Both the position numbers and the translations under genes were made by a program. The notes under the pieces are model-generated. The model worked only from the letters and a program-made list of their open reading frames with translations. It was not told the origin of the DNA and did not search any database. A DNA stretch of 62,797 bases, taken from positions 1 to 62,797 of the forward strand of contig JAABRM010000043.1 of NCBI GenBank assembly GCA_011390955.1, read 5' to 3'. Positions within the stretch are counted from its first letter, which is position 1. Each line of letters begins with the position of its first letter. Of this stretch, positions 35,531-46,274 are shown in pieces. Source of the stretch: Oscillatoriales cyanobacterium. GTDB lineage: Bacteria; Cyanobacteriota; Cyanobacteriia; Cyanobacteriales; Laspinemataceae.

Positions 35531-35755
35531 CTATTTCAAAATTTGAAAGCTGTAAACTTCCAATACTGGGCCAATCATGGCCATAGTCATCACATCATCT
35601 CGTACTTGAGCATCTATGGTCACTTTGAGGCCGTTTTTCAATAACTCCGAGGGAAGTTCATAAAGTTCATAGGTTTTGCCCTCGTCGCTTTTCAAAGCCC
35701 AAGTCCCAGAACCCATGTTAATCCGTTGAATGGTGCCGGTTACGGTGATATTCAT
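35531..35755 (-). CDS. Small OB-fold-like protein coupled to a subtilisin-like protease
   Basis: 74 residues from ATG 35755. Its start overlaps the TGA stop of the upstream protease gene (ATGA), so it is translationally coupled and surely in the same operon. Predicted strands VTGTIQRINMG, TWALKSDEGKTYEL, LKVTIDAQVRDD, VLEVYSFQIL resemble a five-strand barrel (OB-like). No signal peptide. Function unknown; may regulate or assist the protease. Confidence 0.65.
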   Translation of the reverse strand: MNITVTGTIQRINMGSGTWALKSDEGKTYELYELPSELLKNGLKVTIDAQVRDDVMTMAMIGPVLEVYSFQILK

Positions 35756-37539
35756 GCTAGTTTTTCTTCTCCTTTCATGGCTAAACGCGCTAAGGAGAAA
35801 CATAACAGGGCATTCACCAATAAGAATAGACGGGCGCCGATACCGCTACCGATCCACAATAATGTGGGCGGAGTGACTAATACGGCACTAACCGCCAAAC
35901 AACTGGCAACGCCGAGGGTTGAACCGATCGCAAACCATTTCCAGTCTCGGTGTCCTAGCAGCAGGGTAATTAAAACCAGGGGAATGAGGATACTGGCAAA
36001 AATGGGGTTCAGGGCGCTACTGCCACTAATGGCGGTGCCCAATTCGGGGATGGAACTGCCCATCACGCGCATGGGCCATTGAGGTAAATCAAAGATATAG
36101 AAGCCGCGCAGGACAAATACACCAGAACTGCCGAAAACTAGGCCAGTAGCCAGGTTCCAGTTCCAAGCAAAGGGGAAATAGTTCCGTAAGAACCAAGCCA
36201 GCAAATAGGAACCGAGCACCATTGCCAGTTTCGGTAACAGTGCATAAGCCCCGCCATCAATCCAGAAACGCGGATTCAAATAACCGTTATCCCGCAGCCA
36301 ACGGAAGAAGTCCCGGAAAGTGATTTGGCCTTTGGTGGCGATCGCTACGGCATTGGCGGCATCCAGTTGTCCTGCCCCAAAGTGGTTCAGGGGGTCATCT
36401 TTAATTGCCCGCGCCGACTGTTTGAGAATGCCAGTGACTTGTTCTGGGTCATCCACTCCAGAGGCTTTGATTAATGCCGCAACTCCCGCAACGTGGGGGG
36501 ATGCCATGCTGGTGCCTTGGAAATAAGCAAACATCGGCTGACCAGTTTGGGGGTTGATGGTTTCTTGGAGAATACCGCCAGTTTCCGTTTCCGAGGTATC
36601 CCCACCAGGGGCAGAGATATCTACACCCGCGCCATAGTTGGAGTAGGGAGATTTCACCCCAGCAGCGTTGATGGCGGAAACGCCGACAACATGGGAGTAA
36701 CGGGCAGGATAGGAAGCGCTGTTATCATTGGAGTTGCCAGCGGCAGCAATAACCACAACACCTTTGCTGTAGGCATAAGCGATCGCCTCTTTCATGGCTT
36801 GGCTTTCGCCCCCACCACCGAGACTCATGTTGATTACATCCGCGTTATTATCGGCGGCAAATTTAATCGCTTCGGCGATATCAGCGATCGTGCCACCACC
36901 ACCAGCACTGAGCACTTTTAACGGCATAATGTTGGCTTGGTAAGCAATACCGGCAACACCGTAACCGTTGTTGGTGGTTTGGGCGATCGTGCCTGCGACG
37001 TGGGTGCCATGTCCGTTGTCATCGTCAGCTACTTCGCGATCGTTCACGAAATCGTAACCTTTGACAAATTTGGTATCTTTTAAGTCGGGAACGCGAGAAA
37101 CTCCCGTGTCAATTACTGCCACGGTGACGCCTTCCCCTTTGGTGTCTTCCCAAGCTTTTTCCACATTGATGCTGCGGAAATTCCACTGTTTGCTATAGTC
37201 GGGGTCGTTGGGAGTTCCCAGGGTACTATAGATATAGTTTGGCTCTATATATTCGGTATATCTACCAATTTCCGATTTTTTCAGGCGATCAAAAAGTGTG
37301 CGATCGCCCTTAACGATATATAGATTATCTGCCTGAGAAAATTCACTATTTAAACGAGGCGCAAGCTGATACTCTTGAGTGAGTATGCTAAGTTTTTTGT
37401 CAATTTGGCTGGGGGAAATGTCTTCACGAAAATCCAAGACAATGGACTCGTAAGTGCCTTGGGCTGCCAATCCCTGAAAGGAGGCGATCGCCCAAATTAG
37501 CCCAACCAAAAATAAACCGAGCCAGAAAAATTTTTTCAT
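35752..37539 (-). CDS. Subtilisin-like (S8) serine protease with C-terminal membrane domain
   Basis: About 595 residues. Hydrophobic N-terminal signal (FFWLGLFLVGLIWAIASF), propeptide-like region to ~105, then the peptidase: catalytic Asp in VAVIDTG (~144), His in DDNGHGTHVAG (~182), oxyanion Asn in AAAGNSND (~265) and Ser in GTSMASPHVAG (~345). The last ~170 residues contain four to five predicted membrane helices (e.g. LLPKLAMVLGSYLLAWFL, ILIPLVLITLLLG, LGVASCLAVSAVLV), unusual for S8 proteins. The catalytic domain is thus probably held at a membrane surface. Coupled to the small downstream gene. Confidence 0.92.
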   Translation of the reverse strand: MKKFFWLGLFLVGLIWAIASFQGLAAQGTYESIVLDFREDISPSQIDKKLSILTQEYQLAPRLNSEFSQADNLYIVKGDRTLFDRLKKSEIGRYTEYIEPNYIYSTLGTPNDPDYSKQWNFRSINVEKAWEDTKGEGVTVAVIDTGVSRVPDLKDTKFVKGYDFVNDREVADDDNGHGTHVAGTIAQTTNNGYGVAGIAYQANIMPLKVLSAGGGGTIADIAEAIKFAADNNADVINMSLGGGGESQAMKEAIAYAYSKGVVVIAAAGNSNDNSASYPARYSHVVGVSAINAAGVKSPYSNYGAGVDISAPGGDTSETETGGILQETINPQTGQPMFAYFQGTSMASPHVAGVAALIKASGVDDPEQVTGILKQSARAIKDDPLNHFGAGQLDAANAVAIATKGQITFRDFFRWLRDNGYLNPRFWIDGGAYALLPKLAMVLGSYLLAWFLRNYFPFAWNWNLATGLVFGSSGVFVLRGFYIFDLPQWPMRVMGSSIPELGTAISGSSALNPIFASILIPLVLITLLLGHRDWKWFAIGSTLGVASCLAVSAVLVTPPTLLWIGSGIGARLFLLVNALLCFSLARLAMKGEEKLA

Positions 37540-37790
37540 AGTCAAAATTCGGTGTAGGGTCTGTGCTTCTTCCTAGGATAGCTCATTGATAGATGAAGTG
37601 TGGAGATGACTGTAGGGGCTTCGCCTACGGGCCGACAACTCCCGAAACCAATGCAAAAATTAACCACCGGAATGGGAAAGCCCTAACACGATGCGATCGC
37701 ACACCCATACAAAAACAGCCGCGATCTGAGAAAATTACGCTAAACTGGCGGTAAAAATATCCCCACTATCCAAAATAAATTATTTTACCT

Positions 37791-38021
37791 ATGAGCTATC
37801 GCCATATTATTACAATTGAGCCTGGTAAACGCGGCGGCAAACCTTGCATCAGACGAATGCGGATTACTGTGTATGATGTTTTGGGCTGGTTAGCAGCCGG
37901 TATGTCTCATGCAGAAATTTTAGATGACTTTCCAGAATTAACAGAAGAAGATATTAGAGCTTGTCTTGAATTTGCTGCCGATAGAGAACGTCATGTAATT
38001 CAAGTAGTAGGTGAAAGTTGA
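37791..38021 (+). CDS. DUF433 antitoxin-like protein
   Basis: 76 residues. Classic DUF433: ITIEPGKRGGKPCIRRMRI, VYDVLGWLAAGMSHAEIL and DFPELTEEDIRACLEFAAD, a small HTH domain. DUF433 genes are usually followed by a DUF5615 PIN-like toxin gene, and a truncated one does follow here with a 4-nt overlap (TTGA). The partner toxin is broken, so the antitoxin is now probably orphaned. Confidence 0.88.
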   Translation: MSYRHIITIEPGKRGGKPCIRRMRITVYDVLGWLAAGMSHAEILDDFPELTEEDIRACLEFAADRERHVIQVVGES

Positions 38022-38110
38022 AATTATTGTTTGACCAAAACCTGAGTCGCAAGTTAGTGAGTCGTTTGTCTGATATCTTCCCTAATGCTAGTCACGTTCA
38101 GTTTCTTTAA
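38018..38110 (+). pseudogene. Truncated DUF5615 PIN-like toxin
   Basis: From TTG 38018 (overlapping the antitoxin stop) the frame reads LKLLFDQNLSRKLVSRLSDI and then NASHVQFL before a TAA. FDQNLS is the diagnostic start of DUF5615 toxins, which continue for about 80 more residues with the PIN-type acidic residues. The gene is cut off after 30 residues where the aspartic-protease array begins, so the catalytic region is lost. Confidence 0.8.
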
Positions 38111-38111
38111 T

Positions 38112-38222
38112 TTATTCTAAAGTTAAAATTTCTGATTTTTCGGGAATTTTCAGTTGGCTAGATGCTTCTGTTTGGTCAAGTTCGGTTAAAACCGCGATCG
38201 CTTCTGTTTGGATATTTTCCAT
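38112..38222 (-). pseudogene. Truncated copy of the 103-aa partner protein
   Basis: The reading MENIQTEAIAVLTELDQTEA ... EILTLE then stop (36 residues) is the N-terminal third of the partner family, nearly identical to the others. It has the leader and ribosome site of the family upstream (38223-38336). Its 3' end abuts the truncated toxin, so the junction at about 38110 is a recombination point. Confidence 0.85.
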
Positions 38223-38288
38223 AATTTCTTCTCCTACCTATATATTAATCAGAACAGTCCACAATAAGATCATAACTCTAGTCGAATC

Positions 38289-38318
38289 GGGAGCGGATAA
38301 AAGCTAATACCCGCTCCC
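38289..38318 (-). terminator. Conserved inter-module hairpin of the protease array
   Basis: GGGAGCGG ... CCGCTCCC, an 8-bp perfect stem with a 14-nt loop, lies just after the protease stop. The same hairpin follows other modules at about 39197, 41333 and 42388, more or less mutated. It may act as a transcription stop or mRNA end; there is no strong T-run. Confidence 0.5.
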
Positions 38319-38335
38319 TAAATGCTGACAAATAA

Positions 38336-38821
38336 CTATCTCAATACAATCTGATCTGCCTGTCCAGTTTTAGCATTTTCCAGCAATATTACTGCCCGAA
38401 AATGAGTTAAAAAATCCATCCCCAAAACTCCTCGCCAATAACGCTGATTAGGACTTTTTGGTAAGGCATAAGCCAGAACCGGAAAATCTATCATTTGTTT
38501 CCCCAAACAATAGAAGGAAGAAACCTGAATGATCGGAATTCCTAACCGATCGCCACCCCCTGTCACCAGCTTGTCATATCGTGCGATCGGATTTTCTGTG
38601 TCATAACCCAAGTCATTTAATACTTTTACAGGTAGTAAGGTGTAGCTGGCTCCTGTGTCTACCAATAAAGGAACTTCCACAGGAGCAGTTTGTCCAGATT
38701 TGCTACCCACATCAGCGCCTACTAATAGATAATGACTGGTAGGACTATGCGGCTGATTTTTGAGTAAAGGTGAAAACCTCAAACGTTCCACCTGATTATT
38801 GAATGGCTGTTGATTGTTCAT
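38336..38821 (-). CDS. Retropepsin-like aspartic protease (array copy 5)
   Basis: 161 residues, a single-lobe aspartic protease. The catalytic motif is VDTGASYTLLP (~75-85) and the second signature GVLGMDFL sits at ~135-142; the order and spacing fit the retropepsin-like/aspartyl protease family, which works as a homodimer. No signal peptide, so cytoplasmic. The start ATG overlaps the stop of the upstream partner gene by one base (TAATG), so the two are translationally coupled. Intact. Confidence 0.88.
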   Translation of the reverse strand: MNNQQPFNNQVERLRFSPLLKNQPHSPTSHYLLVGADVGSKSGQTAPVEVPLLVDTGASYTLLPVKVLNDLGYDTENPIARYDKLVTGGGDRLGIPIIQVSSFYCLGKQMIDFPVLAYALPKSPNQRYWRGVLGMDFLTHFRAVILLENAKTGQADQIVLR

Positions 38822-39132
38822 TACATAAAAAACCCAATTTCTTCCGGGATCGGGCCAGTATATTTGATCGCCACTGCTTTTCCATTGCGGTTAGGCAAGT
38901 AATCTTCAATGTCATCACAATCTGGTGAGTAAGCTAAGACTTCACCCCGAATGACATTCAAATACTCATCCCGTTCAGTGTAGGCAATGAGTACCCACTG
39001 CTGAGGATATCGTTCTTTAATTTCTGCTAAAGTTAAAATTTCTGATTTTTCGGGAATTTTCAGTTGGCTAGATGCTTCGCTTTGGTCAAGTTCAGTTAAA
39101 ACCGCGATCGCTTCTGTTTGGATATTTGCCAT
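38821..39132 (-). CDS. 103-aa partner of the aspartic protease (array copy 5)
   Basis: 103 residues. The N-terminal third (EAIAVLTELDQSEASSQLKI) is a helix, the rest a globular unit (LTLAEIKERYPQQWVLIAYT, EYLNVIRGEVLAYSPD, AVAIKYTGPIPEE). It overlaps the protease start by one base. A leader of about 100 bp with AGGAGATAAAATT before ATG is conserved in front of every copy. I recognise no named family. Constant pairing suggests it is a substrate, regulator or adaptor of the protease. Confidence 0.85.
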   Translation of the reverse strand: MANIQTEAIAVLTELDQSEASSQLKIPEKSEILTLAEIKERYPQQWVLIAYTERDEYLNVIRGEVLAYSPDCDDIEDYLPNRNGKAVAIKYTGPIPEEIGFFM

Positions 39133-39245
39133 AATTTTATCTCCTATCTATATATTAATCAGAACACTCCACAATAATATCATAACTCTAGTCGAATCGG
39201 GAGCGGATAAAAGCTAATACCCGCTTCCTAAATGCTAACAATTAA

Positions 39246-39845
39246 TTATCTCAAGACAATTTGATCTGCCTGTCCAGTGTTCGCATTTTCCAGCAAGATT
39301 ACTGCCCGAAAATGAGTTAAAAAATCCATCCCCAAAACTCCATCCCAATAAGTTGGCCTTGGTAAAGTATAGGCTAGAACAGGAAAATCAACTATCTCTT
39401 TTTTTAAGCAAAAGAATGAAGAAATTTGAATAATCGGAATTCGTTCTGTCTGGCCTTTGCCTGTAATACCAAATCCGGTTCTCATATACTGACTATGATC
39501 ATTACCTAAAACGCTTGTGGATTCCCGCCTTCGCGGGAATGACATCTGACCTGATAAACGGGTTTTAACAACCGGATTTGGTATAATCAGACCGGGATGC
39601 CATTTGACCGGATTTTTGGTGTCATAACCCAAACGATTCAAAGTATTTTCAGGCAAAGTGGTATGGCTGGCTCCTGTGTCTACCAATAAAGTTATCTTAG
39701 CCGGATCGTCGCCTCCAGATTTTCTCCCCACATTGGTTCTTACTAACAGATAATGAACCGAAGACTGACCTGACAATAAAGGAGAAATTCTTAAACGTTC
39801 GATTTCTTTATTATGGAATGGTTGTTGATTTTTACTCACATCCAA
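39246..39845 (-). CDS. Retropepsin-like aspartic protease carrying an in-frame MITE (array copy 4)
   Basis: 199 residues, against 159 in the most similar copy. The extra 40 codons correspond exactly to a 117-bp miniature element plus a 3-bp duplication (39467-39586) inserted between GLI and TGKG; they read through without a stop. The catalytic LLVDTGASHTTLP is N-terminal to the insert and GVLGMDFL is C-terminal to it, so both are kept. The likely start is TTG 39845 (or GTG 39839), overlapping the partner gene by 10 nt. Whether the loop insertion is tolerated is unknown. Confidence 0.8.
   Translation of the reverse strand: MDVSKNQQPFHNKEIERLRISPLLSGQSSVHYLLVRTNVGRKSGGDDPAKITLLVDTGASHTTLPENTLNRLGYDTKNPVKWHPGLIIPNPVVKTRLSGQMSFPRRRESTSVLGNDHSQYMRTGFGITGKGQTERIPIIQISSFFCLKKEIVDFPVLAYTLPRPTYWDGVLGMDFLTHFRAVILLENANTGQADQIVLR
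39467..39583. mobile_element. 117-bp MITE inserted inside a protease gene
   Basis: Termini TACCAAATCCGGTT and AACCGGATTTGGTA are perfect inverted repeats. The flanking TAA is duplicated (39464-39466 and 39584-39586). The interior has an ATTCCCGCCTTCGCGGGAAT palindrome. The same family is at 20121-20281, there with TTA duplication. Confidence 0.85.
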
Positions 39846-40147
39846 ATACCAATGGTTTCAGGGATAGGGCCAGTATATTCTATGGCCACAGCTTTTCCTT
39901 TAGTGTAAGGCAAGTAATCGTCAATTTTATCCCGATCGGGTGAATAAGCCAAGACCTCACCCCGAATTACGTTCAGATATTCATCTTCTTCAGTGTAGGC
40001 AATGAGTACCCACTGCTGAGGATATTTTTCCTGAATTTCTGCTAAGGTTAAAATTTCTGATTTTTCGGGAATTTTCAGTTGGCTAGATGCTTCTGTTTGG
40101 TCAATTTCGGTTAAAACCGCGATCGCTTCTGTTTGAGCAGTTTCCAT
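39836..40147 (-). CDS. 103-aa partner of the aspartic protease (array copy 4)
   Basis: 103 residues, very similar to copies 3 and 5 (ETAQTEAIAVLTEIDQTEAS, YLNVIRGEVLAYSPD, EYTGPIPETIGIWM). The last codons overlap the protease frame by 10 nt. The leader and ribosome site are as in the other copies. Confidence 0.85.
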   Translation of the reverse strand: METAQTEAIAVLTEIDQTEASSQLKIPEKSEILTLAEIQEKYPQQWVLIAYTEEDEYLNVIRGEVLAYSPDRDKIDDYLPYTKGKAVAIEYTGPIPETIGIWM

Positions 40148-40225
40148 AATTTCCTCTCCTATCTATATACAGCATTGTTGACATTTGTCAGGTACAACTA
40201 TCAAAACAGTCATTCTCTTGAAAAG

Positions 40226-40420
40226 TCAGCGGTCATCCATTAAAAGCCTGTACCTAAACGAGCTAAAAACCCCTGTATGAATCGCTACTATCCACAATAG
40301 TATAATAACTCTACTATAGTCAAAGCCTTCAGATTGGCTACTCACGTTGAGTCGCACTAATCGATAATGAACTGTTGAGTAACTTCGGCGAAACCGGGAC
40401 TCGTGAGACAATGGTTCCAC
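40226..40420 (-). pseudogene. Decayed aspartic-protease remnant
   Basis: The frame STVHYRLVRLNVSSQS aligns with SVHYLLVRSDVSSKSG of the intact copies, but the VDTG catalytic motif is replaced (LLWIVAIHTG) and the rest of the domain is missing. It lies between modules 3 and 4 with no partner gene, so an extra module was lost here. Confidence 0.6.
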
Positions 40421-40486
40421 AACAGATCCGAGATACCAGTAAAGAAACTCGATTTCAGAAATGGTAAAAGGTCAAAGGTAAACTAA

Positions 40487-40966
40487 CTACCGAAATCTAA
40501 TTTCATTTTTTCGCTTGCTTCCAGCTTTTGCCAACAAGATTACTGCCTCAAAATGAATCAAAAAATCCATCCCCAGAACTCCATCCCAATAAGTTGGCTG
40601 CGGTAAAGTATAGGCCAGAACTGGAAAATCAATTATCTGTTTCTTTAAACAATAGAAAGAAGAAACCTGAACAATCGGAATTCGTTGCGTCTTACCTTTG
40701 CCTGTTACTATACCAGGATGCCAGTTGTCAGGATTTTGGGTATCATAACCCAAACCCTTTAATACTTGTACAGGTAAAGTGGTATAGCTGGCTCCTGTGT
40801 CTACCAATAAAGTAACTTCCACAGGAGCAGTTAGTCCAGATTTACTACTCACATCAGATCGTACTAATAGATAATGAACCGAAGCATGACCGGGCAACAA
40901 AGGAGGAATTGGGAAAAATTCTACTTCGTTATTATTGAATCCTTCTTGATTTTTACTCACATCCAA
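40487..40966 (-). CDS. Retropepsin-like aspartic protease (array copy 3)
   Basis: 159 residues, the intact reference for the 199-aa copy. VDTGASYTTLP (~76) and GVLGMDFL (~138) are present. It starts at TTG 40966 or GTG 40960, overlapping the partner stop by 10 nt. The C-terminus (AKAGSKRKNEIRFR) differs from the LENAxTGQADQIVLR end of other copies. Confidence 0.87.
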   Translation of the reverse strand: MDVSKNQEGFNNNEVEFFPIPPLLPGHASVHYLLVRSDVSSKSGLTAPVEVTLLVDTGASYTTLPVQVLKGLGYDTQNPDNWHPGIVTGKGKTQRIPIVQVSSFYCLKKQIIDFPVLAYTLPQPTYWDGVLGMDFLIHFEAVILLAKAGSKRKNEIRFR

Positions 40967-41268
40967 ATACCAATGGTTTCAGGGATAGGGCCAGTATATT
41001 CTATAGCCACTGCTTTTCCATTGCGGTTAGGTAAGTAATCGTAAATATCATCCCGATCTGGTGAATAAGCCAGCACCTCACCCCGAATGACATTCAGATA
41101 CTCATCCCGTTCAGTGTAGGCAATGAGTACCCAATGCTGAGGATATCTTTCTTTAATTTCTGCTAAGGTTAAAATTTCCGACTTTTCGGGTGTTTTCAGT
41201 TGGCTAGATGCTTCGCTTTGGTCAAGTTCGGTTAAAACAGCGATCGCTTCTGATTGGATATTTTCCAT
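40957..41268 (-). CDS. 103-aa partner of the aspartic protease (array copy 3)
   Basis: 103 residues, same layout as the other partners, with minor changes (SSQLKTPEKSEILTLAEIKE, QHWVLIAYT). Ten-nt overlap with the protease gene. Conserved leader and AGGAGAT ribosome site upstream. Confidence 0.85.
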   Translation of the reverse strand: MENIQSEAIAVLTELDQSEASSQLKTPEKSEILTLAEIKERYPQHWVLIAYTERDEYLNVIRGEVLAYSPDRDDIYDYLPNRNGKAVAIEYTGPIPETIGIWM

Positions 41269-41375
41269 AATTTTATCTCCTATCTATATGTTAATCAGGA
41301 CAGTCCACAATAAGATCATAACTCTAGTCGAAGCGGATAAAAGCTAATACCCGCTCCCTAAATGCTGACAATTAA

Positions 41376-41801
41376 TTATCTCAAGACAATTTGATCTGCC
41401 TGTCCAGTTTTAGAATTTTCTAGCAAGATTACTGCCCGAAAATACCTTAAAAAATCCATCCCCAACACACCATCTACCCGGAGATTCGCGGGGATATTAT
41501 AGGCAATTACTTCAAAGTTTTTGAGCGTCTGACCCAGACAATTAAACCAAGATACTTGAATCACAGGCGCCTTGATTATACCTTTTCCAGTGACGATATT
41601 TTCCTCTCGGATAGGATGCTTGATGTCATAACCACTATATTGGAGTAGTTGAACTGGCAACATGGTAAAGCTTGCTCCTGTATCGACTAATAATTTTACG
41701 CGATGATGATTCTTTTTTTGTAAGCCTCCAATCATTGCTCGTGTCGATAGCAAATTTTTACCGTGTGGATATAAGCCATGAGATTTTTGAGAGTAAGACA
41801 T
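41376..41801 (-). CDS. Retropepsin-like aspartic protease, divergent (array copy 2)
   Basis: 141 residues. VDTGASFTMLP (~50) and GVLGMDFL (~118) are conserved, but the N-terminal region (SYSQKSHGLYPHGKNLLS) is unlike the other copies. The C-terminal 17 residues are again shared (LENSKTGQADQIVLR). Start ATG 41801 overlaps the partner stop by one base (TAATG). Intact. Confidence 0.87.
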   Translation of the reverse strand: MSYSQKSHGLYPHGKNLLSTRAMIGGLQKKNHHRVKLLVDTGASFTMLPVQLLQYSGYDIKHPIREENIVTGKGIIKAPVIQVSWFNCLGQTLKNFEVIAYNIPANLRVDGVLGMDFLRYFRAVILLENSKTGQADQIVLR

Positions 41802-42319
41802 TACAACATCACCGCTAAATCGTCAGGGATGGGGCCAGTATATTCTATAGCCACAGGTTTGCCATTCCCCAAAGGAAACTGACTGTAAGCTTCATCGCGA
41901 TCCGGTGAGTGAGCTAACACTTTCCCTCGAATTACATTCAAATATTTATCTACTTCTGGTTCAACAATCAATACCCACTGATGAGGATATTGTTGCTGAA
42001 TTTCTTCTAGGGTTAAAATTTCCTCTGTTTCAGCGATCGGGCCAGTATATTCTATAGCCACTGCTCTTCCGTTTAGATTAGGCAAGTAGTCGTAAATATC
42101 ATCACAATTTGGTGAATAAGCCAGCACCTCACCCCGAATTACGTTCAGATATTCATCTTCTTCAGTGTAGGCAATGAGTACCCAATGCTGAGGATATTTT
42201 TCCTGAATTTCTGCTAAGGTTAAAATTTCTGACTTTTCGGGAATTTTCAGTTGGCTAGATGCTTCGGTTTGGTCAAGTTCGGTTAAAACCGCGATCGCTT
42301 CTGTTTGGATATTTGCCAT
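41801..42319 (-). CDS. Tandem-duplicated partner protein (array copy 2)
   Basis: 172 residues with two partner units: residues 1-105 match the 103-aa proteins to SPNCDDIYDYLPNLNGRAVAIEYTGPI, then a second unit begins at ETEEILTLEEIQQQYPHQWV and runs to AIEYTGPIPDDLAVML without the N-terminal helix. The repeat boundary lies near residue 102. The second unit is more divergent. Coupled to the divergent protease, which suggests co-evolution of the pair. Confidence 0.83.
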   Translation of the reverse strand: MANIQTEAIAVLTELDQTEASSQLKIPEKSEILTLAEIQEKYPQHWVLIAYTEEDEYLNVIRGEVLAYSPNCDDIYDYLPNLNGRAVAIEYTGPIAETEEILTLEEIQQQYPHQWVLIVEPEVDKYLNVIRGKVLAHSPDRDEAYSQFPLGNGKPVAIEYTGPIPDDLAVML

Positions 42320-42430
42320 AATTTTATCTCCTATCTATATATTAATCAGAACATTCCACAATAAGATCATAACTCTAGTTATTCAGAGCGGATAAAAGCT
42401 AATACCCGCTGCCTAAATGCTGACAATTAA

Positions 42431-42923
42431 TTATCTCAATACAATTTGCTCTGCCTGTCCAGTGTTCGCATTTTCCAGCAAGATTACTGCCCGAAAATGA
42501 GTTAAAAAATCCATCCCCAAAACTCCTCGCCAATAACGCTGATTAGGACTTTTTGGTAAGGCATAAGCCAAAACCGGAAAATCTATCATTTGTTTCCCCA
42601 AACAATAGAAGGAAGAAACCTGAACAATCGGAATTCCTAACCGATCGCCACCCCCTGTGACCAGCTTGTCATATCGGGCGATCGGATTTTCTGTGTCATA
42701 ACCCAAATTCTTTAAGGTAATTTCAGGTAAAATGGTATAGGTTGCTCCTGTATCTACTAACAAAGGCACTTCTAACTTCTAAAGGATCACCTTTTCCTGA
42801 TTTTCTCCCCACATCAGCGCGTACCAATAAATAATGACTGGTAGGACTATGCGGCTGATTTTTGAGTAAAGGTGAAAACCTCAAAAGTTCCACCTGATTA
42901 TTGAATGGCTGTTGATTGTTCAT
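42431..42923 (-). pseudogene. Frameshifted aspartic protease (array copy 1)
   Basis: Two overlapping frames (42923-42723 and 42769-42431) that join into one protease by removing one copy of a perfect 7-bp tandem duplication at 42768-42781. The first frame has the N-terminus (SHYLLVRADVGRKSGKGDPL), the second starts at LLVDTGATYTILP and ends LLENANTGQAEQIVLR. The duplication lies just before the catalytic DTG, so the protein is not made unless the frame is restored. Confidence 0.88.
42768..42781. repeat. 7-bp tandem duplication causing a frameshift
   Basis: ACTTCTAACTTCTA on the plus strand. With a single unit the reading is PLEVPLLVDTG as in the intact paralogues. Confidence 0.88.
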
Positions 42924-43234
42924 TACATAAAAAACCCAATTTCTTCCGGGATCGGGCCAGTATATTCTATAGCCACTGCTTTTCCTTTCGTGTAAGGCAA
43001 GTAATTGTCAATATCATCACAATCTGGTGAGTAAGCTAAGACTTCACCCCGAATGACATTCAGATACTCATCCCGTTCAGTGTAGGCAATGAGTACCCAC
43101 TGCTGAGGATATCTTTCTTTAATTTCTGCTAAGGTTAAAATTTCCGATTTTTCGGGAATTTTCAGTTGGCTAGATGCTTCTGTTTGGTCAATTTCGGTTA
43201 AAACCGCGATCGCTTCTGATTGGATATTTTCCAT
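42923..43234 (-). CDS. 103-aa partner of the aspartic protease (array copy 1)
   Basis: 103 residues, first gene of the array in the direction of transcription. Same sequence pattern as copies 3-5 (EIDQTEASSQLKIPEKSE, DEYLNVIRGEVLAYSPD, YTGPIPEEIGFFM). One-base overlap with the frameshifted protease. Leader and AGGAGATAAAAT ribosome site are conserved. Confidence 0.85.
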   Translation of the reverse strand: MENIQSEAIAVLTEIDQTEASSQLKIPEKSEILTLAEIKERYPQQWVLIAYTERDEYLNVIRGEVLAYSPDCDDIDNYLPYTKGKAVAIEYTGPIPEEIGFFM

Positions 43235-43430
43235 AATTTTATCTCCTATCTATATCTGAATCGGGATAATCCACAATTCTATGATAACTCTACAGGATTT
43301 ACTCTTTCCTTGGTGCGGTTGGGTGACAGCCACAGACCCAACTCTAAAAAACTGAAAATAACTGAAAATAACTGAAGCGCGATTCCCGTCTCTGGATCCG
43401 CTTCGCGCGATCGCCCCGATCATACCCGGA

Positions 43431-46274
43431 TTATTTTTTATAGGCTTCAAACATAGATTTCACGCAAGAAAACTCGGCCTCTAATTCCGCAAAAGCTTGG
43501 GCTGCTTTCAAGAAAAAACCTTGAGTGCCTAAGTCTTGTAGGGTAAAACACAGATGATACATTTTCCGAATGCCTAAATTGCTGGCACTGCCTTTGAGGG
43601 AATGAGCGGCATATCTTAGCATCGCGGCATCTTCAGTGTCGATCGCTTCTCGAATCGTTGCTAACAACGATGGAGTATCTTCTAAAAATAGGTCAAGAAT
43701 TTCCCCAAGCAAATTTCTGTCTCCTTCTGGACTTAATTCTGACCGTAAGCTTTCTAAAAGCTGCCAATCTACACTAGCAACTTCATCGGATTTCCAGCTT
43801 ATTTCTGAGCGATCGCTGACTATTTTAGGGACTAAAAATAACTCTTCTTTTCCGTTGTTGCTTAACTTAATTTTATGTTTAACGTCTGCACCGTTATTTA
43901 AATGTTCTAAAGCATTTTTTAATAATTCAATATTAATTGGTTTTTTGAGATAATCATCCATCCCGGCAGCTAAACATTTATCCCGATCGCCTCCAGTTCC
44001 CCCAGCGGTGACGGCAATAATCCAAGGTTTTTTCTCCGTTGCATAATGGTGAGTTTTGTCTTCTGCCCATTGCTGGCAAATCTGCCGAGTGGCTTGGAGT
44101 CCATCCATCTTGGGCATTTGTACATCCATCAGCACCAAATCATAAGGTTTTTGTTCCAACGCCGCGATCGCCTCTAAACCATTCTTCGCCACATCAGCCT
44201 GATAACCCAATGTACTCAAAATTCGCAAAGCGACTTTTTGATTCACCACATTATCTTCTGCCACTAAAATTCGCAACGGTAAGCGATCGGCTAACTTATC
44301 TGTTCGTGGGGTTTCACTTTGTGCGCGGGAATTTAGCGCGGGTAATGACACAAACAAATCCATCATTACCTGATAAAGCTGGGACAATTTAATCGGCTTA
44401 CTCAAACAACTTGCCACATCGCTATCCGGTAATTTAACCGGGCAACCAATGGCACTCATCATCACAATTTTGAGATGGGGTAAATGTTTCTCCTGATGAA
44501 TTAAACGCGCCAAAGATAGTCCATCCATTTGTGGCATTTGCATAGCCAAAAATGCCACATCAAACGGCTCTCCTTGCTGAATCAATTGCAAGGCTTCAAT
44601 TCCCGTTGCCATTTCGGTGACAATCATCCCCCATTTCTCCGTTTGCCTCCGCAGCATTTGTCGGTTGAACTGATGCGGATCGACAATCAGTAGCCTTTTT
44701 CCTTGCAAAGCTGGCTGCAATTGATTGACAGAATCAAAAGTATTGTCCAGAACCTCAGAAGCGATCGTAAAACTAAAATTTGAACCAATTCCTAATTGAC
44801 TTTCCACCCAGAGTCTACCGTTCATGCGTTGGATCAATCGCTTACAAATCGCCAACCCCAAACCGAGCCCCCCATATTCGCGGACATTCGAGCCATCCAA
44901 TTGAGAAAAAGAACGAAATAGTTGATTAATTTTATCTTCCGGAATCCCAATTCCCGTATCTTTAATTGAAAAGTGAATTTCTTCATAACGTTGCGATGGG
45001 AATAATTGATTTTCCGTCTGAGTGTGAGCCACTGACCAATTGCCCAAATCCACCGAACTGACAGAAATAACGACTTCTCCTTGCTGAGTAAATTTCACCG
45101 CATTCGTCAGCAGATTGACTAGAATTTGTCGCAAACGGGCATAATCCCCAAAAATATGAGTGGACGTTTGTTCATCAATCTGATAAGCCAAATCAAGTCC
45201 TTTTTGCGCTGCATTCATGGCCACCAGATCCATCGACTCTTCAATACACTGACGCAAGTCTAATGGCTGATTCGCCAAGTGCAACTGACCCGCTTCGAGT
45301 TTGGAGAAATCTAAAATATCGTTAATCATTTGTAATAAAATGCCACCGCTTTGATGAATGGTGGCGACAAACTCTTGTTGTTGAGGGTTCAGTTGGGTTT
45401 GTTGCAGCAAACTGGTCATCCCCAATACCGCATTCATCGGTGTCAGCAATTCGTGGCTCATATTCGCCACAAATTCTGATTTGATTCGAGTTGCGGAATA
45501 TGCCTCCGCCAAACTGGTTTCCAGTTCCGTATTTTGGGCTTCTAGCTGCTCGGATAATTCAGCGGCTTTACTTTTGGCTATTTGAATTTCCTCAATATAT
45601 TCTTCGATCTGCCGTAACCCTGGATAAAAAATTAAAAAAGCTTCTAACAGCAAGACTAACAACGTAATGCCGAGTAATAACCATTGAATTTGAGCAATTT
45701 TGCTGACCCGGGCTTGGGCTTCTTTTTCGTATTGCCGCACGATCGCATCCATGCCCTGAAGAAAAGTCGCTTCATATTTGAGAACTTGTGAGATTAAAAT
45801 GGCAAAGTCCGGAGAATTTCCGGGATAATTCCCGGTAGTTTGGCCTAACTTCAAGATGCTTTTAGCCGCTGCGAGCATTTTGTCATGGGCAGCAGAAATC
45901 TCGGCAAACATAAGCTCGATTTTGGCACTGTTATTTCCACTTAAACCCAAGGAAGCATCGCCAAATTGCAACCCTTGGTGAGATTTCTCCCACAAATCCA
46001 CAACTTGTTGAAGTTCTTGCAGATAAGACCCAGCGATCGCCGGATCGTTTGTAGTTTGGATGGCTAAGGTCGCTTTAGCAAGTCGTTGACTGAGCATCCG
46101 CTGTCGTCCCGCAATGTTAATCGTCGCTGCATCGCTATACTGACGTTTGTTCGAGAATTGAATCCCGACCTGTCCAGCGATTAAAACCAGTGCCACAACA
46201 GTTAGAGCCTTAATATAGCGTCTTGTCAGATTATCAGTGGGGGATTTTTGTTGTAATTGCATAGACATAATCAT
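43431..46274 (-). CDS. Hybrid histidine kinase with PilJ-like sensor, two receivers and HPt
   Basis: 947 residues. N-terminal membrane helix, then a PilJ/type IV pili methyl-accepting-type sensor (AGRQRMLSQRLAKATLAI), a second membrane helix at ~200-215 and a coiled coil. HisKA with the phospho-His in FVANMSHELLTPMNA (~270), HATPase_c (NAVKFTQQGEV, DTGIGIPEDKI, GLGLAI). The first receiver (~525-640) has AMQMPQMDG where LMDVQMP is expected, so the phospho-Asp is replaced by Ala. The second receiver (~668-790) is intact (LVLMDVQMPKMDG). The HPt domain has its His in AAHSLKGSASNLG. Output partner not in the window. Confidence 0.93.
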   Translation of the reverse strand: MIMSMQLQQKSPTDNLTRRYIKALTVVALVLIAGQVGIQFSNKRQYSDAATINIAGRQRMLSQRLAKATLAIQTTNDPAIAGSYLQELQQVVDLWEKSHQGLQFGDASLGLSGNNSAKIELMFAEISAAHDKMLAAAKSILKLGQTTGNYPGNSPDFAILISQVLKYEATFLQGMDAIVRQYEKEAQARVSKIAQIQWLLLGITLLVLLLEAFLIFYPGLRQIEEYIEEIQIAKSKAAELSEQLEAQNTELETSLAEAYSATRIKSEFVANMSHELLTPMNAVLGMTSLLQQTQLNPQQQEFVATIHQSGGILLQMINDILDFSKLEAGQLHLANQPLDLRQCIEESMDLVAMNAAQKGLDLAYQIDEQTSTHIFGDYARLRQILVNLLTNAVKFTQQGEVVISVSSVDLGNWSVAHTQTENQLFPSQRYEEIHFSIKDTGIGIPEDKINQLFRSFSQLDGSNVREYGGLGLGLAICKRLIQRMNGRLWVESQLGIGSNFSFTIASEVLDNTFDSVNQLQPALQGKRLLIVDPHQFNRQMLRRQTEKWGMIVTEMATGIEALQLIQQGEPFDVAFLAMQMPQMDGLSLARLIHQEKHLPHLKIVMMSAIGCPVKLPDSDVASCLSKPIKLSQLYQVMMDLFVSLPALNSRAQSETPRTDKLADRLPLRILVAEDNVVNQKVALRILSTLGYQADVAKNGLEAIAALEQKPYDLVLMDVQMPKMDGLQATRQICQQWAEDKTHHYATEKKPWIIAVTAGGTGGDRDKCLAAGMDDYLKKPINIELLKNALEHLNNGADVKHKIKLSNNGKEELFLVPKIVSDRSEISWKSDEVASVDWQLLESLRSELSPEGDRNLLGEILDLFLEDTPSLLATIREAIDTEDAAMLRYAAHSLKGSASNLGIRKMYHLCFTLQDLGTQGFFLKAAQAFAELEAEFSCVKSMFEAYKK

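Follow-up and report, generated by a model that had tools for sequence, protein, structure and literature searches.

A recurrent gene pair of a retropepsin-like protease and a DUF5678-like partner, arrayed in tandem in an Oscillatoriales cyanobacterium

We analyzed a stretch of 62,797 nucleotides from an Oscillatoriales cyanobacterium (the window), in which a tandem array on the minus strand, at 38100-43234, holds five modules and two remnants of a two-gene unit. Each module consists of a gene for a short protein, here called the partner, and a gene for a retropepsin-like aspartic protease. Bacterial retropepsins are recorded in many genomes, and few have a known role. We found that the pairing of the two genes is a real, recurrent two-component unit, and a cognate function of partner and protease is highly probable. 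An initial annotation, made from the letters of the array, had described at least five repeats of the unit and had proposed that protease and partner work together. Five partner/retropepsin modules were indeed found, and joint working is well supported by gene overlap, adjacency across genera, fusions in a single frame and congruent distances. The dependence between the two genes runs one way, which suggests that a cytosolic retropepsin is restrained by the partner, as its cognate inhibitor or as a prodomain that acts in trans, in a pair resembling a toxin and its antidote.

Recurrence of the pair and its one-way dependence

As the initial annotation had proposed, we searched genomes for the partner family. 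The partner profile matched 22 of 388 genomes of the host's class, with up to 11 copies per genome. A retropepsin lay within 700 nt of 24 of the 35 intact partners in class genomes, compared with an expectation of about 0.0006 per locus, assuming five such proteases per 6 Mb genome; matches to the Asp_protease_2 model (PF13650) numbered 0-11 per genome among the genomes listed. Scanning genome contigs with the partner profile gave 30 loci, 28 of them cyanobacterial, one from KSB1 (L081) and one from Acidobacteria (L084). These loci are partly dependent: L076 and L077 belong to one metagenome-assembled genome (MAG), L060 and L070 come from a single species, and several coincide with loci from the search of same-family genomes. 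A retropepsin followed the partner at 21 of the 30, and at least at four of the 21 (L057, L069, L070 and L085) the protease looks broken or truncated. Among the nine other loci, L073 is cut short by the end of its contig, whereas L062 and L082 retain a protease remnant.

We also searched 194 class genomes with the DUF5678 model (PF18929) and obtained 17 matches, spread over 15 genomes and with that of the window among them. Five of these loci are DUF5678-retropepsin fusions in a single open frame, with DUF5678 at the N terminus. Six more have a retropepsin-like frame directly downstream, scoring above the Pfam cut-off at L052, below it at L041, L048, L054 and L055, and recognized by eye at L049. 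The other six, classified by eye, lack a retropepsin and comprise four response-regulator-like proteins, one HicB-like protein and one gene standing alone. The response-regulator-like proteins (L043, L045, L050 and L051) carry a weak DUF5678-like stretch, and their C-terminal domain looks AlbA/Schlafen-like by eye. Among the loci seen, there was no other tandem array of comparable size; partners 1-2 kb apart occur as pairs in G016, where both units are broken, and in G474.

The association was not symmetrical. In class genomes outside the host, all 17 intact proteases of the partner type had a partner immediately upstream, leaving 0/17 without one, whereas 11 of the 35 intact partners with room downstream lacked a protease (one-sided Fisher p 0.007). 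The initial annotation had held that partners often found without proteases would refute joint working. This came about in part, with those 11 partners alone; the reverse, an intact partner-type protease alone, did not occur. The three partner-type proteases that had no partner (L154, L209 and L210) are fragments or broken, and a broken protease beside an intact partner also occurs, for example in module 1 of the window.

For these counts, a partner was kept if at least 70 of 86 model positions lay in one frame with at least 500 nt downstream, which retained 35 of 50 rows. The 15 dropped rows were two partial pieces at L107, three L123 rows repeating L107, the second row of L131, and L113, L115, L125, L134, L137 and L139-L142. 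Of the 24 partners with a retropepsin match, five (L104, L107, L109, L135 and L136) had a partial or broken protease. The protease profile gave 37 matches, from which five of the window's genome and seven with low scores (48.6-54.2 bits) were set aside. The 25 that remained were 17 intact proteases (one frame covering 110 or more of 138 positions), five partial or broken ones with a partner (L104, L134, L155, L156 and L157) and the three without.

Anatomy, protein families and history of the array

The array is made up as follows.

42923-43234, minus strand: module 1 partner, 103 amino acids (aa); open reading frame (ORF) call, repeat family D1
42723-42923, minus strand: module 1 retropepsin, first piece of the frameshifted gene, TAATG junction with the partner
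42431-42769, minus strand: module 1 retropepsin, second piece; PF13650 E 1.2e-6
41801-42319, minus strand: module 2 double partner, 172 aa; PF18929 29.1 bits (cut-off 23.2)
42026-42319 and 41801-42025, minus strand: array-type domain and divergent DUF5678 domain of the double partner, respectively
41376-41801, minus strand: module 2 retropepsin, divergent and not in the clade of the four other array proteases; PF13650 E 5.1e-11
40957-41268, minus strand: module 3 partner; ORF, AlphaFold2 model
40487-40966, minus strand: module 3 retropepsin, probably starting with the GTG at 40960 and so overlapping its partner by GTGA; PF13650 E 7.6e-9, AlphaFold2 model
40226-40420, minus strand: what is left of an additional module, located between modules 3 and 4; repeat families D8 and D9, broken frames
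39836-40147, minus strand: module 4 partner
39246-39845, minus strand: module 4 retropepsin with an in-frame insert of a miniature inverted-repeat transposable element (MITE), likely GTG start at 39839
39467-39583, strand not assigned: the MITE inside the module 4 protease, 14-nt terminal inverted repeats
38821-39132, minus strand: module 5 partner
38336-38821, minus strand: module 5 retropepsin, TAATG junction; PF13650 E 1.1e-6
38236-38280, minus strand: leader repeat preceding the truncated partner; family D8
39146-39190, 40269-40313, 41282-41326, 42333-42377 and 43248-43292: other D8 leader copies
38100-38222, minus strand: truncated sixth partner, about 41 codons; protein match E 8.4e-14

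The partner gene precedes the retropepsin reading frame in all five modules, and there is no third gene between modules. Partner genes have 103 codons, except that of module 2, which has 172; the partner repeat family (300 nt, five copies) is 87-100% identical and spaced at 0.9-1.1 kb. A conserved leader and ribosome site had been annotated for every unit. The D8 leader (45 nt, six copies) is 73-100% identical, and a GGAG-type ribosome site was seen by eye ahead of the partner genes, but the leader of module 4 is unlike the others. Four leader copies contain a hairpin-forming stretch (one, when folded, gave -21.5 kcal/mol), and promoter and terminator scans returned chance level. Of the junctions annotated, TAATG (a 1-nt overlap) is present in modules 1, 2 and 5, while modules 3 and 4 likely start at GTG with a 4-nt GTGA overlap, and the annotated 10-nt overlap requires a TTG start. 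Protein searches of the host genome matched the array alone, with six partner and seven protease matches (E 0.001). Three more distant DUF5678 genes lie elsewhere in that genome (L039, L054 and L055), the last two adjoining a retropepsin-like frame that scores below the Pfam cut-off.

By motif and profile, and in module 3 also by fold, the window proteases are retropepsin-like (MEROPS A2 / PF13650), a family marked by a catalytic D[T/S]G[A/S] and a hydrophobic-hydrophobic-Gly further along. All five scored above the PF13650 cut-off of 24.3 bits, module 1 by way of its second piece. The annotated GVLGMDFL is kept in all five; DTGA is too, but the annotated DTGAS is found in only four, the fifth having DTGAT. 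Among intact relatives, 16 of 17 have a catalytic DTGA or DTGS. The AlphaFold2 model of the module 3 protease, a monomer prediction, had a predicted local distance difference test (pLDDT) score of 85, and its best Foldseek matches were APRc and retroviral proteases, with seven matches at E 0.001 or better. N-terminal hydrophobicity was 0.12-1.51 in the 17 intact proteases and six window proteins, compared with 1.94-2.42 in six signal-peptide-like retropepsins of related genomes. Because the hydrophobic N terminus of those six is absent from the window proteins, the partners and proteases of the array are predicted to be cytosolic. No partner was found near the six signal-peptide-like retropepsins.

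The partners had been annotated as belonging to no recognizable family, which proved wrong for one copy: in module 2, the second half of the double partner scores above the PF18929 cut-off. Because it does so, we place the partners with, or next to, the DUF5678 family; two single partners scanned alone gave no Pfam DUF5678 match, although the array partners are 59-63% identical to that second half. The AlphaFold2 model of the module 3 partner has a confident core at residues 31-90 with the order alpha-beta-beta-alpha-beta. Beyond this core is a conserved, low-confidence C-terminal tail (mean pLDDT 69 and 44 from residue 91) with a YTGPIP-type motif. A fold search of the partner gave no PDB match at E 0.001, sequence-profile searches gave a best E of 0.3, and those with the fusions gave nothing. 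Similarities to BofC, GvpL/F and HicB-type proteins were weak; we considered them and did not use them. In several relatives the stop-to-stop frame extends the partner at its N terminus by some 70 residues or more, and in L056 (3293-4207) and L058 (3236-4264) a phycobilisome-like domain (PF00502 E 3.6e-6 and 3.5e-18) precedes the partner domain in a fusion. These two fusions hint at a possible link to light-harvesting turnover.

We compared partner and protease distances across 19 pairs from outside the window and found them correlated (r 0.87, permutation p 0.0001); the two trees also have their main clades in common. Shared host descent explains part of this correlation, so pairs within one genome weigh more, and the two modules of one MAG, L076 and L077, separate alike in both trees. 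The protease of module 2, annotated as divergent, does fall outside the clade of the other four window proteases (support 100/99). A single clade of all five was not rejected (p 0.35), however, so this protease may be a deep member of the array. Its partner had been annotated as a duplication, and a simple tandem duplication does not fit: the two halves were rejected as one clade (p 0.014), the second lying at 0.39-0.42 from other partners and the first at 0.12-0.18. The double partner joins two different partner lineages. Most simply, the divergent protease would have retained the partner domain that belonged to it, and recombination would have added an array-type partner in front.

We calculated the ratio of nonsynonymous to synonymous substitution rates (dN/dS) between copies, another check that the initial annotation had proposed. 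Values were well under 1 throughout, at 0.15-0.33 for partners (10 pairs) and 0.19-0.47 for proteases (10 pairs), so purifying selection has acted on both genes during much of their past. Synonymous divergence (dS) was 0.16-0.47 in partners versus 0.25-2.0 in proteases, and the lower partner values point to homogenization of the partner repeat.

The array is volatile, with a frameshift, a MITE, remnants, and only a stub in two congeners. The frameshift and the MITE that had been annotated are both real; the first is in the module 1 protease, which lies in two pieces, and the second in the module 4 protease, whose frame remains open across the insert. Queried with 121 nt of the MITE, the host genome gave 54 matches, several at 99%, and the inverted ends measure 14 nt; copies this similar suggest recent activity of the MITE family. 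The decayed sixth copy was found as the truncated partner, and it is accompanied by a second remnant, at 40226-40420, that consists of spacer with pieces like a protease N terminus and a leader. In two congeners the flank at 43431-46274 is syntenic, and the site retains no more of the array than the leader and some 29 codons of one partner. The block with the gene at 35752-37545 sits about 650 kb away in congener G002, its synteny stopping at 37603. With a synteny breakpoint at 37603-43159, one flank syntenic and the other about 650 kb off in G002, the array lies at a rearrangement junction, and in these congeners it was lost or never grew. The frames flanking the array, of 597 and 947 aa, resemble by eye a subtilase and a hybrid kinase. 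At 37791-38110 a DUF433 gene (PF04255 E 5.4e-27) is followed by a 30-codon stub, which is cut off at the end point of the truncated sixth partner and resembles what we take to be the start of a DUF5615-type toxin.

Candidate roles of the partner

We propose that, in each module, a cytosolic retropepsin and a DUF5678-like protein that binds it would be encoded by one operon and coupled in translation. The partner would be made first, would bind the nascent or dimerizing protease and would keep it inactive, as a prodomain acting in trans, and loss or removal of the partner would free the protease. It would follow that loss of the protease is harmless and loss of the partner is not. Growth of the array would have come from tandem duplication, with the partner repeat being homogenized, the proteases diverging and several copies falling into decay. 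That the partner is a cognate inhibitor or trans prodomain is a tentative proposal, which we would put slightly short of an even chance; binding, inhibition and toxicity of the free protease are what we infer. The fusions support the prodomain proposal because they carry DUF5678 at the N terminus, where a prodomain would sit.

Such a pair could serve as a toxin-antidote or anti-phage system, in which free retropepsin would cut cell or phage proteins after the DUF5678 inhibitor is released on infection or stress. The array would then stock several of these units, which would differ in what they cut. We regard this role as possible though doubtful. At L076 (2-6350) a module and a ParE-like pair stand, as judged by eye, between hsdM-like and hsdS-like genes in an apparent type I restriction operon, and at L074, also by eye, a module is surrounded by several toxin-antitoxin-like pairs together with an HNH-like protein. 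Pfam and PADLOC scans of neighbors matched ParE, XisH, XisI and type I restriction models; the 99 small neighbor ORFs included three PIN, two ParE, one XisH, one XisI and one DUF433. The PADLOC comparison points towards defence, with 263 models matched by 150 of the 168 neighbor ORFs versus 91 by 150 of the 222 control ORFs, though it counts overlapping models and is inflated by related models and larger neighbor ORFs. Neither comparison with control regions demonstrated an enrichment, be it of toxin-antitoxin neighbors or of defence models. An addiction module of mobile elements was considered and is unsupported, the plasmid, phage and viral-contig searches being empty for the queries tried.

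Several observations weigh against a restrained, potentially toxic protease. The protease profile was trained solely on partner-adjacent proteases, so partnerless cousins may escape the count of 0/17. Seven intact retropepsins with lower scores (48.6-54.2 bits) had no partner match nearby; their hydrophobic N termini suggest a separate class that is probably secreted. In L170 (1504-1869), a protease of the subfamily that is intact in other respects, DKG replaces the catalytic DTG. The lone intact partners had no common neighbor gene, and their existence implies that they do something by themselves or are slowly decaying. Array partners resemble one another more closely than the proteases do, which is unexpected for a tightly co-evolving inhibitor unless gene conversion dominates. 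PIN neighbors were not clearly commoner than in controls (3/99 versus 2/150, the latter among the 25 of 147 control families listed), in a comparison whose sets differ in size make-up and whose control regions were arbitrary places in nine genomes. Plasmids, phages and viral contigs gave no match for the queries tried. Finally, an obligate activator would equally account for the 17/17, with partnerless proteases vanishing.

The partner might instead be an adaptor or targeting subunit, its variable N terminus recognizing a target and its DUF5678 domain recruiting a protease; the array would then retain a single shared adaptor for proteases that differ in specificity. The fusions behind phycobilisome-like domains, the extra N-terminal stretches of relatives, the stronger conservation of array partners than of proteases and the weak DUF5678-like stretch in four response-regulator-like proteins that lack a protease would all suit an adaptor. 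Its loss, however, should leave intact proteases behind, and 0/17 were partnerless; moreover, the window partners have 103 aa, and no recognition domain was found in them by the Pfam scan. We consider an adaptor unlikely. An obligate activator or folding chaperone, with no inhibitory role, would explain the coupling of the genes as well as the 17/17, but it leaves the 11 intact protease-less partners unexplained, and we think it quite unlikely.

A plain substrate, processed by the protease to its mature form, would fit the one-to-one pairing and the conserved low-confidence tail with its YTGPIP-type motif. Against a needed processing step stand the 11/35 intact partners that have no protease, and the contrast of 0/17 with 11/35 favors a restrained enzyme over a plain substrate. 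The single-frame fusions neither exclude nor require processing, and overall we find this role improbable. Least of all do we favor a decaying multicopy family without present function, a very improbable reading that the frameshift, MITE and two remnants among seven copies, the leader and roughly 29 codons retained in two congeners, and the broken proteases of other genomes might suggest, but that dN/dS well below 1 in 10/10 partner and 10/10 protease pairs and adjacency kept across genera, as far as the Acidobacteria (L084) and KSB1 (L081) loci, speak against.

A recurrent cognate partner, sometimes fused, would give a direct handle on retropepsin control. A natural retropepsin inhibitor, if the partner is one, would be of wide biochemical interest, and if the unit serves in defence or as toxin and antidote, a retrovirus-type protease would join the known effectors. 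The array copies, which include intact, frameshifted, fused and MITE-bearing ones, are natural variants for testing.

Comparison with known systems

Our literature search found no described function for the partner/retropepsin pair, nothing joining retropepsin and toxin-antitoxin, and no paper on PDC-M08, a two-gene defence candidate of PADLOC-DB. DUF5678 is named in a paper on plant clubroot, to go by its title. The array resembles DUF5678 (PF18929) loci in that the second partner domain of module 2 passes the model, with five of 17 loci fused to a retropepsin and six of 17 adjoining a retropepsin-like frame; it differs in the two single partners scanned without a match.

In module 2 both PDC-M08 models were matched, though the resemblance to this candidate is weak. 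The double partner matches PDC-M08A (E 2e-5), and PDC-M08B is matched by the two window proteases scanned, of module 2 (E 8.6e-8) and module 3 (E 1.3e-6), and by the relative L061 (E 1.3e-10). PDC-M08A does not match the module 3 partner, and only three of 19 rows of the partner alignment match it at E 0.01. Module 3 matches B and not A, and PDC-M08B is unspecific, as it also matches three of four control retropepsins of the signal-peptide type (E 5.3e-7 to 0.0044). The adjacency of the two genes in the defining set is implied by the name alone. PADLOC PDCs are mostly unvalidated candidates found by 'guilt-by-embedding', according to the part available of an archaeal immunity survey (PMC12988326).

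RimB and RloA of Pseudomonas are likewise retropepsin-like proteases that work with operon-encoded proteins (PMC11957791, PMC12239564). In the sections available of the same accounts, the operon-encoded proteins comprise RimK and RloC, both of the ATP-grasp type, the phosphodiesterase RimA and the membrane protein RloB, which is transglutaminase-like, and a DUF5678 partner is unmentioned there (PMC11957791, PMC12239564). No counterpart of the ATP-grasp ligase was seen at the array: no third gene lies between modules, and the flanking frames look, by eye, like a subtilase and a hybrid kinase. Among the fold matches to the model of the module 3 protease, APRc of Rickettsia conorii (PDB 5c9f) ranked first (Foldseek E 6.8e-5). 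The two are 20% identical over the aligned part. We know of no DUF5678 partner of APRc.

The pair also resembles a type II toxin-antitoxin system. It is a short, co-directional two-gene operon with an overlapping junction and the inhibitor-like gene first (21/30 loci), and it has a one-way dependence (0/17 versus 11/35, with a profile trained on partner-linked rows) and a patchy, multicopy spread. We know of no toxin-antitoxin system with a retropepsin. Unlike type II systems, which are commonly but not obligatorily found on plasmids and phages, the partner/retropepsin pair did not show such presence for the queries tried. Set beside these systems, the array is a local expansion of a pair that is listed in part in libraries.

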